Assembly (NCBI GenBank): GCA_001796355.1
Contig: MGMG01000090.1
Span: 16,092-80,091 of the forward strand
Source: Chloroflexi bacterium GWB2_54_36
GTDB lineage: Bacteria > Chloroflexota > Anaerolineae > Anaerolineales > Anaerolineaceae
Length of the DNA stretch: 64,000 nt
Direction of reading: 5' to 3'
Each line of letters begins with the position of its first letter. The stretch's first letter is position 1. Below the pieces are notes generated by a model. The model saw nothing but the letters and a program-made list of their open reading frames with translations. It had not been told where the DNA came from and ran no database searches. Below are positions 11,051-46,467 of the stretch, in pieces. The position numbers and the translations under genes were made by a program.

Positions 11051-11069
11051 AGTCGAACGACAAAAGATT

Positions 11070-11162
11070 TTGAATCTCAAAATGGGCAAGGTCTCCCACC
11101 AACAGGGTGCGCTGTGCGTGACCTGCCCCAGTTAATGCCTGAAAGCTTTGACCGATAAGCAC
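11070..11162 (+). repeat. Left ~93-bp direct repeat flanking HipBA-like cassette
   Basis: tgggcaaggtctcccaccaacagggtgcgctgtgcgtgacctgcccc...ttaatgcctgaaagctttgaccgataagcac; copy 2 at 13070. Confidence 0.9.
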
Positions 11163-11227
11163 ACTCGGTCGATCACAGATCGACTTGTGGGCCGGGAATG
11201 GTGCGATCAGACATCTGAACATAGATC

Positions 11228-11255
11228 TATAATAATCAATATATTGATTATTATA
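11228..11255. promoter_or_regulatory. 28-bp perfect palindrome, putative HipB-like operator
   Basis: tataataatcaatatattgattattata; half-site atattgaYtattat recurs at 11282-11295. Confidence 0.6.
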
Positions 11256-11386
11256 AACAATAATATTTTTTAAAAACTAATATATTGACTATTATCTATT
11301 GCATTTCTTAAAAATGCGGATATACTTAGGTTAATTCATCTGTGTCAGATTGGTTTTTGCTGGGCCTAAAGAGGTAATCAAGGCGT

Positions 11387-11755
11387 ATGTTAAATAAAAT
11401 CGATTTTTCTATTGCAACGAGTGAGCAAATTGAAGATTTTCTCTGCAGACAATTGAAAAACATAAGATTAACCCGGAATTTTACACAAGCTCAATTAGCA
11501 AAAGAATCGGGTGTCGCTATTGGGACAATTAGACGATTTGAGGAAGGTCAGAGTGTCTCTTTAAACACGTTTATTCGGATTCTAATAGCACTCAGTCTTC
11601 AACAAAACCTTGAAACACTCTTACCTGACCCTACAATACGTCCTATTGAACGTGTCAATACTGGCGGGAGTGAACGTAAACGCGCTCGACCTGTTCAATC
11701 TGATAGCGAAAATTCAACATGGGCCTGGGGCGACGAAACGGGTGATAAACAATGA
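11387..11755 (+). CDS. XRE-family HTH regulator, HipB-like antitoxin
   Basis: KNIRLTRNFTQAQLAKESGVAIGTIRRFEEGQSVSLNTFIRILIAL; stop overlaps hipA-like start (ATGA). Confidence 0.85.
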   Translation: MLNKIDFSIATSEQIEDFLCRQLKNIRLTRNFTQAQLAKESGVAIGTIRRFEEGQSVSLNTFIRILIALSLQQNLETLLPDPTIRPIERVNTGGSERKRARPVQSDSENSTWAWGDETGDKQ

Positions 11756-13056
11756 GCGATGCAAAAGTTATACTCTGGGGAAGTGATATTGGTGCTGTCA
11801 CATGGGTAGATGATAGAAAGGTCAGTGTTTTTCAATATGATCCCGCATTCATTAAAAGCGGAATCCAATTATCGCCGTTAATGATGCCGTTAAGAGAGTT
11901 ACCCTTCGAGTTTCCAGCCCTTGCGAAAGATACCTTTAAAGGATTGCCGGGGTTACTTGCGGATTCTCTTCCAGACAAGTTTGGAAACGCGATCATTGAT
12001 ACCTGGTTAGCTTCTCAGGGACGAACACCGGAGAGTTTTAATTCGGTTGAACGACTGTGTTATATCGGAAGCCGAGGCATGGGGGGGCTCGAATTTAAAC
12101 CAGCACTTCGTATATCACACTCAAAAACAGATGAAATTGAAGTAGCTAAACTAGTCGAATTATCTAGCAAGATTCTTAATCAACGTGCAGGATTAGCAGG
12201 TGTTTTTAACGGAGATGATGACCGGGAAGCGATGCAAGATATTCTGAGGGTTGGAACTTCCGCTGGTGGTGCAAGAGCAAAAGCAATTCTTGCCTGGAAT
12301 CCAACAACGAATGAATTTCGTTCCGGTCAAGTTAAAATCCCATCCGGCTTTGAGTATTGGATCTTGAAATTTGACGGGGTCAGTAACAATCGAGATAAGG
12401 AACTCTCCGACCCACAAGGTTATGGAAAAATTGAATACGCCTGTTACCTTATGGCATTAGAAGCCGGTATTGAAATGACAGAATGTCGTCTCCATCATGA
12501 AGGTGGGCGAAGCCATTTTATGACCAAAAGGTTTGATCGAAATGCTGATGGAAGCAAAATCCATATGCAATCGCTTTGTGCGATCACTCATGTTGACTTC
12601 AATGAGCCGGCACTCTATTCATACGAACAGACAATCCAGACAATGAAGCGGTTAGGGCTATCTCAAAAAGATTTGGAACAGCAAGTTTTGAGAGCCATGT
12701 TTAACGTTGTGGGTCGTAACCATGATGATCATGTAAAGAATATTGCATTTCTTATGAACCGTAGAGGGGAATGGAAACTTTCACCAGCCTTTGATGTTTC
12801 GTATGCCTACGACCCAAAAGGTGATTGGACAAGCCAACACCAAATGAGCATTAATGGAAAACGAGACTTGTTTAGCAAAGAGGACTTATCCTCTTTGGCA
12901 AAGCTTGCCGGTATCAAAACCAATCGAGCTTATGAGATGCTTGACCGTGTTATCCTGATCATGAGGACCTGGCCTGAGTTTGCCCAAAAAGCAGGGGTGG
13001 CCGAAGACCGTATTCGGCAAATACAAGCTACTCACCGCATATCGCTATTGGATTGA
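11752..13056 (+). CDS. HipA-domain serine/threonine kinase toxin
   Basis: FKGLPGLLADSLPDKFG, VGTSAGGARAKA, FDRNADGSKIHMQSLCA, NVVGRNHDDHVKNIAFL, WKLSPAFDVSYA typical of HipA kinases. Confidence 0.92.
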   Translation: MSDAKVILWGSDIGAVTWVDDRKVSVFQYDPAFIKSGIQLSPLMMPLRELPFEFPALAKDTFKGLPGLLADSLPDKFGNAIIDTWLASQGRTPESFNSVERLCYIGSRGMGGLEFKPALRISHSKTDEIEVAKLVELSSKILNQRAGLAGVFNGDDDREAMQDILRVGTSAGGARAKAILAWNPTTNEFRSGQVKIPSGFEYWILKFDGVSNNRDKELSDPQGYGKIEYACYLMALEAGIEMTECRLHHEGGRSHFMTKRFDRNADGSKIHMQSLCAITHVDFNEPALYSYEQTIQTMKRLGLSQKDLEQQVLRAMFNVVGRNHDDHVKNIAFLMNRRGEWKLSPAFDVSYAYDPKGDWTSQHQMSINGKRDLFSKEDLSSLAKLAGIKTNRAYEMLDRVILIMRTWPEFAQKAGVAEDRIRQIQATHRISLLD

Positions 13057-13069
13057 AAAGGTGCACGGA

Positions 13070-13164
13070 TTGAGAACCCAAGATGGGGCAAGGTCTCCCA
13101 CCAACAGGGTGCGCTGTGCGTGACCTGTCCTATTTAATGCCTGAGACCTTTGGCCGATAAGCAC
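13070..13164 (+). repeat. Right ~95-bp direct repeat flanking HipBA-like cassette
   Basis: tgagaacccaagatggggcaaggtctcccaccaacagggtgcgctgtgcgtgacctgtcc...ttaatgcctgagacctttggccgataagcac. Confidence 0.9.
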
Positions 13165-13165
13165 G

Positions 13166-13197
13166 CATAAAAAATCCCCGCGATTACCGTGGGGATT
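13166..13197 (-). terminator. tRNA terminator
   Basis: Minus strand: aatccccacggtaatcgcggggatttttt hairpin plus T-run downstream of tRNA. Confidence 0.75.
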
Positions 13198-13201
13198 GAG
13201 G

Positions 13202-13273
13202 TGGCGAGGGTGAGGGTTGAACTCACGACCAAGGGCTTATGAGTCCCCTGCTCTACCACTGAGCTACCTCGCC
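13202..13273 (-). tRNA. tRNA with CAU anticodon (Met or Ile2)
   Basis: GGCGAGGTAGCTCAGTGGTAGAGCAGGGGACTCATAAGCCCTTGGTCGTGAGTTCAACCCTCACCCTCGCCA; cloverleaf with 7-bp acceptor. Confidence 0.92.
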
Positions 13274-13283
13274 GGCGAGCGAA

Positions 13284-13312
13284 AGTATAAACTGAACCGT
13301 TTTTTTTGTCAA
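13284..13312 (-). promoter_or_regulatory. sigma70 promoter for tRNA (TTGACA-N17-TATACT)
   Basis: Minus strand ttgaca (13307-13312), 17-bp spacer, tatact (13284-13289). Confidence 0.75.
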
Positions 13313-13400
13313 TAAATCACGCTTCAGCCAAACCTCAGCCAGCTTGCAACCCACCACGGGTTAAGGAGCGATGCACCCCACTTGGAAAAGATCAAAGACA

Positions 13401-13431
13401 GGTGCAAGGCACTTCAAAAGTGCCTCGCACC
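13401..13431. repeat. REP-like hairpin ggtgcaaggcactt/aagtgcctcgcacc
   Basis: 14-bp arms, one mismatch; partial third copy ggtgcgaggtgcc at 13439-13451. Confidence 0.7.
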
Positions 13432-13508
13432 CAACCAAGGTGCGAGGTGCCTAAATATCCGCGGGTGTGTTGCTCCTGGATTTATAGCTTCCCTGACGCG
13501 CAGAAAAT

Positions 13509-13626
13509 GTAGGTTGGATTGCCCGCAGGGCCAAATCCAACAAACTCGAATTAAATAATGTCGGATTTCGGGCTGTGGGATTGAATCTACATTTGTAATT
13601 ACTTACACGCCCTCTATCCGACCTAC
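13509..13626. repeat. GTAG-ended palindromic repeat, copy A
   Basis: GTAG-GTTGGATT...AATCCAAC hairpin; ends ATCCGACCTAC (terminal inverted repeat with GTAGGTTGGAT, 10/11). Confidence 0.75.
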
Positions 13627-13643
13627 AAATACTTATTTTTGAC

Positions 13644-13715
13644 AACAAATCACGCTCTAGCCAAACCCCAGACCACGCTGTTTGAACGACAAATAATTCT
13701 GGTGGTGCCAATACA
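13644..13715 (-). repeat. Partial duplication of radC 3' end
   Basis: aacaaatcacgctctagccaaaccccagaccacgctgtttgaacgacaaataattctggtggtgccaata matches radC tail at 13901-13972. Confidence 0.85.
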
Positions 13716-13732
13716 ATATTTTCTAGAATTCT

Positions 13733-13884
13733 GTAGGTTGGATTGAGGGGCGGGTAAAGTCAATTGAGTGAGACCGCTTCCACCACCCCGAAATCCAACA
13801 AACTCGAATTAAACAATGTCGGATTTCGGGCTGAGGGATTGAATCTACATTTGTAATTACCTACACGCTCTCTTTCCGACCTAC
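13733..13884. repeat. GTAG-ended palindromic repeat, copy B
   Basis: Same ends as copy A (gtaggttggattg...ttccgacctac) with longer internal loop. Confidence 0.75.
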
Positions 13885-13913
13885 GAATCTTTTTTTTGCC
13901 AACAAATCAAACT

Positions 13914-14618
13914 CTAACCAAACCCCAGACCACGCTGTTTGAACGACACATAATTCTGATGGGTGCCAATCACAATGTGGTCCAGCACTTCGATATCCAA
14001 CAGCTTGCCGACCTGCACCACGGCGCGCGTCAAGGCGATATCCTCCGGCGAGGGAGTCGGGTCGCCGCTGGGATGGTTGTGCACCAATAATATTGAAGCA
14101 GCATTACGCAGGATGGCGGGCTTGAACAATTCCCCAATGCGCACGGTAGAGGCATTCAGCGAGCCTTTATAGATTTTCTCGGTCGAAATCCAGCGGTTGC
14201 GGGTATCGGCCAGCAGCACCCATAAATGCTCCTGGGTAAAAGCCGCCATCTCGAATTTGACCAGGTCGGCGGCGGCCTGCGGGTTGTTCAAAAAGACCGG
14301 TTCTTCGGGCGTCTCGCGCACCAGCCGGCGCCCCAGTTCGATGGCGGCTTTGAGCTGCGCCGCTTTGGCCATGCCCAGCCCGCGTTGGCTGGCCAGTTCG
14401 GCAAAAGACGCCTTCTGCAGCCCGCTCAGCCCTTTCATATCATTCAGCAGGCGCTGCCCCATCTGCACAGCATTCTCGCCGGCCACACCTACCCGCAGTA
14501 AAATGGCCAGCAGTTCTGCGGTGTTGAGCGCCTCGGGACCGCTTTCTGCCAGGCGTTCGCGCGGCCGGTCGCTGGCCGAGAGGTCGGATATTCGGTAGGG
14601 ATGAGTGCTGTCTTTCAT
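13914..14618 (-). CDS. radC: DNA repair protein RadC / JAB (MPN) domain protein
   Basis: RPRERLAESGPEALNTAELLAILL; JAMM motif LLVHNHPSGDPTPSPEDIALT; ATG at 14618. Confidence 0.95.
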   Translation of the reverse strand: MKDSTHPYRISDLSASDRPRERLAESGPEALNTAELLAILLRVGVAGENAVQMGQRLLNDMKGLSGLQKASFAELASQRGLGMAKAAQLKAAIELGRRLVRETPEEPVFLNNPQAAADLVKFEMAAFTQEHLWVLLADTRNRWISTEKIYKGSLNASTVRIGELFKPAILRNAASILLVHNHPSGDPTPSPEDIALTRAVVQVGKLLDIEVLDHIVIGTHQNYVSFKQRGLGFG

Positions 14619-46439: not shown

Positions 46440-46467
46440 GATGGGGCAAGGTCTCCTGACCTGCCCC
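46440..46467. repeat. Short palindromic copy of the HipBA-flanking repeat core
   Basis: gatggggcaaggtc-tcct-gacctgcccca; same arms as 11080-11130 and 13082-13130 but shortened loop. Confidence 0.7.

Follow-up and report, generated by a model that had tools for sequence, protein, structure and literature searches.

A probable post-speciation exchange of a hipBA cassette in a REP-bearing slot beside tRNA-Met in Anaerolineaceae

REP elements usually exceed 100 copies per genome, and two of them in opposite orientation form the pair named BIME-1 in the literature (PMC2817692). HipAB modules are known from a different setting: HipAB is reported to maintain GI21/CGI48, a 48-kb composite island of Shewanella putrefaciens that is excised from tRNA-Trp by its integrase (PMC8978831). 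Here we analyze a hipBA operon that lies between two direct repeats, beside a tRNA-Met gene, in a window of 64,000 nt (the whole stretch of DNA analyzed; contig MGMG01000090.1, positions 16,092–80,091, forward strand, assembly GCA_001796355.1) from the uncultured Anaerolineaceae Chloroflexi bacterium GWB2_54_36 (Chloroflexota; Anaerolineae; Anaerolineales). We compare its genome (G000) with a sister species (G009), a congener (G010) and a further species of the same genus (G012). Our main reading, to which we assign a probability of about 0.7, is that a mobile hipBA cassette sits in a plastic, REP-bearing slot and was brought in or replaced from a close relative once G000 and G009 had become separate species.

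The operon consists of hipB (11387–11755, + strand), encoding a 122-residue HTH antitoxin and repressor (Pfam HTH_3, 34.5 bits), and hipA (11752–13056, + strand), encoding a 434-residue Ser/Thr kinase toxin (Pfam Couple_hipA and HipA_C, E = 2e-48), which overlap by ATGA. The motifs of HipA are intact, including a P-loop-like SAGGARAKA at residue 170, NHDDHVKN at 323 and SPAFD at 344, and their key residues are conserved across 16 homologues. Adjacent genes for an HTH antitoxin and a HipA_C kinase with intact motifs place the pair among HipBA type II toxin–antitoxin modules. PADLOC has no model for this HipA. We infer toxin–antitoxin activity, with HipB presumably repressing its own operon and neutralizing the HipA kinase. 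A perfect 28-nt palindrome, TATAATAATCAATATATTGATTATTATA, and an imperfect second copy (together 11228–11295) are likely HipB operators; G143, G145 and G120, all from other genera, have a similar sequence at the corresponding position before hipB. GC content inside the unit is 0.32–0.45 versus 0.53–0.61 in neighboring genes. The Pfam domains and this composition bear out the single AT-rich hipB–hipA operon that the original prediction had placed between the repeats.

The two repeats, 97 nt each (11066–11162 and 13068–13164, spacing 2,002), are 86% identical and share an exact 42-nt block (11084–11125 and 13086–13127), as the original prediction, which described two direct repeats with a long identical block, had it. 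A search of the genome found these two as its only near-full-length copies, and the same bracket surrounds hipBA in G009. What looks like a simple repeat is composite, with a structured forward element followed by a linker. The left forward element (11080–11134, + strand; 58.8 bits against our family model, R1) is a REP-like cruciform in its long-loop form, and the right one (13082–13136, + strand; 62.1 bits) likewise forms the core of its repeat. The left copy alone is followed by a family member in inverted orientation (11156–11208, − strand; 53.7 bits), with which its forward element makes a BIME-1-like pair. The linker of the right copy (13137–13164, + strand), shared with the left, ends at the tRNA terminator.

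The family is built around the palindrome GGGGCAAGGTC...GACCTGCCCC. Its short-loop form occurs repeatedly in G000, in tandem at two places; one short-loop member of the window (46441–46467, + strand), found by palindrome search and with R1, carries no cargo. Folding a single repeat sequence as RNA gave no significant stability and Rfam returned no match for the repeat; the cruciform, an outer stem with two inner hairpins, was revealed only by aligning the long-loop members of the family. In the seed set, 12 cells of this alignment changed on both sides versus 4.3 in shuffles. Among 22 further hits, unused in building the model except for one seed (L298:1259–1311), 15 cells did so versus 4.0 in shuffles and 0–5 in slid controls, counts that lean towards the model because these hits were aligned to it. 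In the orthologous gaps that follow clpB in G000 (L273, contig C52) and G009 (L009, contig C12), near 5210, one species has a short loop in the element and the other a long loop, a difference from which the palindrome interior seems exchangeable. Elsewhere (L077, L072 and L066), short-loop palindromes are arrayed in tandem, with one unit every 199 or 185 bp, and at least two REP types are combined in each unit.

With 150 candidates scored per genome, R1 matched (E ≤ 0.05) at least 66 elements in G000 and at least 67 in G009, many of them partial, at least 16 in G012 and at least 3 in G010; on the same scale, four further congeneric species and the genomes searched from two other genera gave no match. 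Among the genomes searched, the family appears to occur only in a few species, all from a single Anaerolineaceae genus. Matches of at least 40 bits numbered 8 in G000 and 12 in G009 among the candidates scored. The strong hits that we examined lie within or at the edges of intergenic gaps, and their inspection found no other direct-orientation pair bracketing genes at 0.3–5 kb; the repeat family is thus not generally cargo-flanking. The repeats around hipBA belong to a dispersed, intergenic REP/BIME-like family that is mostly without cargo, as its dispersed extragenic palindromes and the opposite-orientation pair at 11080–11134 (+) and 11156–11208 (−) attest. A looser palindrome pattern scanned against the genome collection gave mostly chance hits across bacteria, its sole relevant contig being from Anaerolineaceae, the same as in G012. 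A degenerate single copy noticed by eye after the inositol-monophosphatase-family gene (imp) of G010 (L229:1019–1062, GGGGGCAAGTCTTAAACAACAGGG) did not align significantly.

Solitary RAYT-like Y1 transposase genes with inverted REPs of several classes alongside occur in the four genomes that carry the family (L345–L355), and species of the genus with more REP-like elements roughly tend to have more such genes. Because REP-flanked Y1_Tnp genes number 3, 4, 3 and 1 in G000, G009, G012 and G010, against 66, 67, 16 and 3 elements, a REP-associated Y1 transposase might be imagined to have acted on the flanking REPs and mobilized hipBA as a passenger. We regard this as very improbable: the REPs beside the RAYT genes mostly belong to other classes (two RAYT loci have weak R1 matches, of 18–26 bits), the hipBA bracket is a direct repeat and not an inverted pair at the ends, and no other gene is bracketed in such a manner. 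RAYT transposases may account for the spread of the REPs, yet no observation links them to hipBA.

In the window, hipBA lies between imp and tRNA-Met(CAU) (13200–13273, − strand; identified by tRNA search and conserved with G010). The terminator hairpin of the tRNA gene (~13170–13195) begins a few bases right of the right repeat, which ends at 13164, in keeping with the predicted adjacency of the two. The order in G010 is imp, a DUF362 gene, tRNA-Met and radC, and homology to the window restarts at the tRNA terminator (~13165), that is, at the end of the right repeat. The G010 occupant (L229, contig C166, 1074–2327) was named a DUF362-type gene by reading its translation. G009 has hipBA and, between tRNA-Met and radC, a different insert, marking a second variable slot beside the same tRNA-Met. 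That insert, ~2 kb long and absent from the window (L008, contig C6, 6256–8310), contains ion channel and thermonuclease-like genes, again by reading translations. The cargo of this interval has thus differed among the three species. No relative compared has a cleanly empty site that retains a single repeat, the slot of G010 being filled by another gene. On the radC side of the tRNA gene, fragments of the radC 3′ end recur within 13300–13962 of the window and alternate with further REP-like palindromic repeats. Copies of 107 nt lie at 13533 and 13791, and copies of 74 nt at 13632 and 13889; the matching gap in G010 is only 53 bp.

Neither an integrase nor a transposase was found among the 15 proteins scanned with Pfam in the first 22 kb of the window, and to that extent the predicted lack of both holds. 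Three familiar architectures were considered and set aside. A tRNA-targeted integrase island does not fit, as the neighbors scanned include no integrase, the repeats contain no tRNA sequence and the tRNA 3′ end is not duplicated; an integron gene cassette does not fit, as both repeats lack the attC core boxes GTTRRRY and RYYYAAC; and a composite transposon does not fit, as no IS copies with transposase flank the operon.

The distribution of hipBA is patchy. hipA is present in 16 of 147 genomes of the family, and matches at E ≤ 1e-60 occur in 6 of 400 genomes sampled from the phylum, the source genome included. The operon is 97% identical to that of G009 and 86% identical to that of a genome from another genus (g40), three members of which have a radC only 61–66% identical to that of the window; copies on alphaproteobacterial plasmids are 60% identical. 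Homology with the 86% relative spans 11226–13060 and excludes both repeats. In seven genomes with hipBA relatives, the stretches read contain no tRNA and no such direct repeats around the operon. On this sequence evidence, hipBA is foreign to its site and was acquired horizontally.

Comparison of G000 with G009 dates this history relative to speciation. Differences in hipBA affect 11 of 228 fourfold sites, versus 61 (from nearby genes) to 72 (from all other scanned genes) expected when base composition is controlled by treating AT- and GC-ending sites apart (p < 1e-17). Low GC3 is not the explanation, since elsewhere it is the AT-ending sites that diverge faster (0.39 versus 0.19). Synonymous divergence tells the same story, with dS of 0.053 for hipA and 0.063 for hipB, the lowest of 52 genes; the next lowest is 0.188, and 50 window genes span 0.19–0.66. 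Vertical inheritance under unusually strong constraint, with the repeats arising by local duplication, would account for the shared position of hipBA in both species and for its low dN. It is nonetheless a very remote prospect in our estimation: the roughly six-fold reduction at fourfold sites, at AT-ending and GC-ending sites alike, argues strongly against it, the non-coding leader is also low in divergence, and the distribution of hipBA is discontinuous. The fourfold deficit indicates instead that the movement or replacement of hipBA postdates the species split. The acquisition of a ~2-kb unit, one part of the original prediction, thereby stands, given its patchiness, its AT-richness, its absence from the slot of the congener and this late exchange.

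The borders of the exchanged tract can be followed by segment. On the left, the repeat tail and inverted element differ at 14 of 93 positions, the operators at 5 of 90 and the leader at 2 of 75; on the right, differences number 28 of 1,305 in hipA, 0 of 42 in the right core, 1 of 37 in the right tail and 5 of 34 in the terminator. Setting the left region and terminator against the operators, leader and right repeat gives p about 1e-4, a value that is indicative only because the segments were picked after looking. These differences outline a low-divergence block at ~11221–13164 that comprises the cassette and the right repeat and leaves the left repeat outside. The low divergence of the right repeat, which rests on 108 bp, could reflect constraint, for example as the hipA terminator, instead of recent transfer.

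In its main proposal, the original prediction took the repeats to be the functional termini of a compact unit, able to integrate and to loop out through RecA, with HipBA acting against its own loss. Their direct orientation and 42-nt identical core suit that mechanism, as do the same bracket in the sister species, its standing as the only cargo-sized bracket among strong family hits and the recent exchange of the cassette. We nevertheless judge it unlikely. The repeat family is dispersed and mostly lacks cargo, hipBA homologues elsewhere lack the repeats, and the left and right copies differ by ~14%, with no homogenization. Moreover, the low block ends at the REP borders and not inside the 42-nt core, so that a crossover in the core is not the simplest account: under it, the left tail should come from the donor and the right tail should be resident, whereas the left tail seen is old and the right one young. 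As ends of a mobile unit, a further part of the original prediction, the repeats are therefore not supported. Two observations had been named as refuting it, of which the first, a repeat occurring in many places with no relation to cargo, was made, whereas the second, synteny of hipBA with its neighbors in relatives, was not. The genome-wide check that it had proposed was similarly mixed, yielding only two near-full copies together with dispersed family members, among whose strong hits hipBA is the sole bracketed cargo.

Exchange of a mobile cassette in a plastic slot would combine these observations as follows. The intergenic slot between imp and tRNA-Met would already have held REP/BIME-like elements, two of which are now seen as the direct repeats. 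The cassette, probably operators, hipB and hipA at about 11226–13060, would have arrived, or replaced an earlier version, once the two species had separated, by recombination with DNA from a close relative. Of the REPs, the left pair would be the older, resident one downstream of imp, and the right REP would have traveled with hipBA. Both homologous recombination as the route and the direction of transfer are what we infer from this pattern. A broader generalization is that REP/BIME-like elements serve as portable homology borders for swapping small toxin–antitoxin cassettes among related Anaerolineaceae at a fixed slot next to a tRNA gene, in which case the block exchanged at this locus would be hipBA plus its downstream REP and would end at REP borders; we advance it as speculation, with the odds well against it. 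Each species is represented by one assembly, and the repeat–hipBA–repeat arrangement is carried by these two genomes only. The locus would offer a cleanly measurable chromosomal toxin–antitoxin exchange after speciation, with tract borders visible at intergenic palindromes, and the same borders at other loci, if found, would make REP elements swap points for small cargo.

Like GI21/CGI48, the locus has HipAB on horizontally acquired DNA at a tRNA gene; unlike that island, it shows no integrase among the proteins scanned and no duplicated tRNA, but intergenic REP elements alone (PMC8978831). Compared with described REP/BIME systems (PMC2817692), it shares dispersed extragenic imperfect palindromes, opposite-orientation pairs and RAYT genes in the genome, but its elements have a two-hairpin cruciform interior, gave fewer matches among the candidates scored than the >100 copies said to be usual, lack a GTAG head in this class and are confined, in our sample, to a few species of one genus. 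The operon resembles HipBA type II modules in its hipB–hipA order, gene overlap, HTH antitoxin, HipA_C kinase motifs and candidate palindromic operators upstream, whereas the scores of its HipB and HipA fall well short of the NCBIfam equivalog cut-offs (HipB, YjjJ), and its closest relatives are scattered Anaerolineaceae and alphaproteobacterial plasmids. The hipBA cassette and the REP-like repeats are thus of known kinds, and it is the post-speciation exchange with borders near REPs that is worth following.
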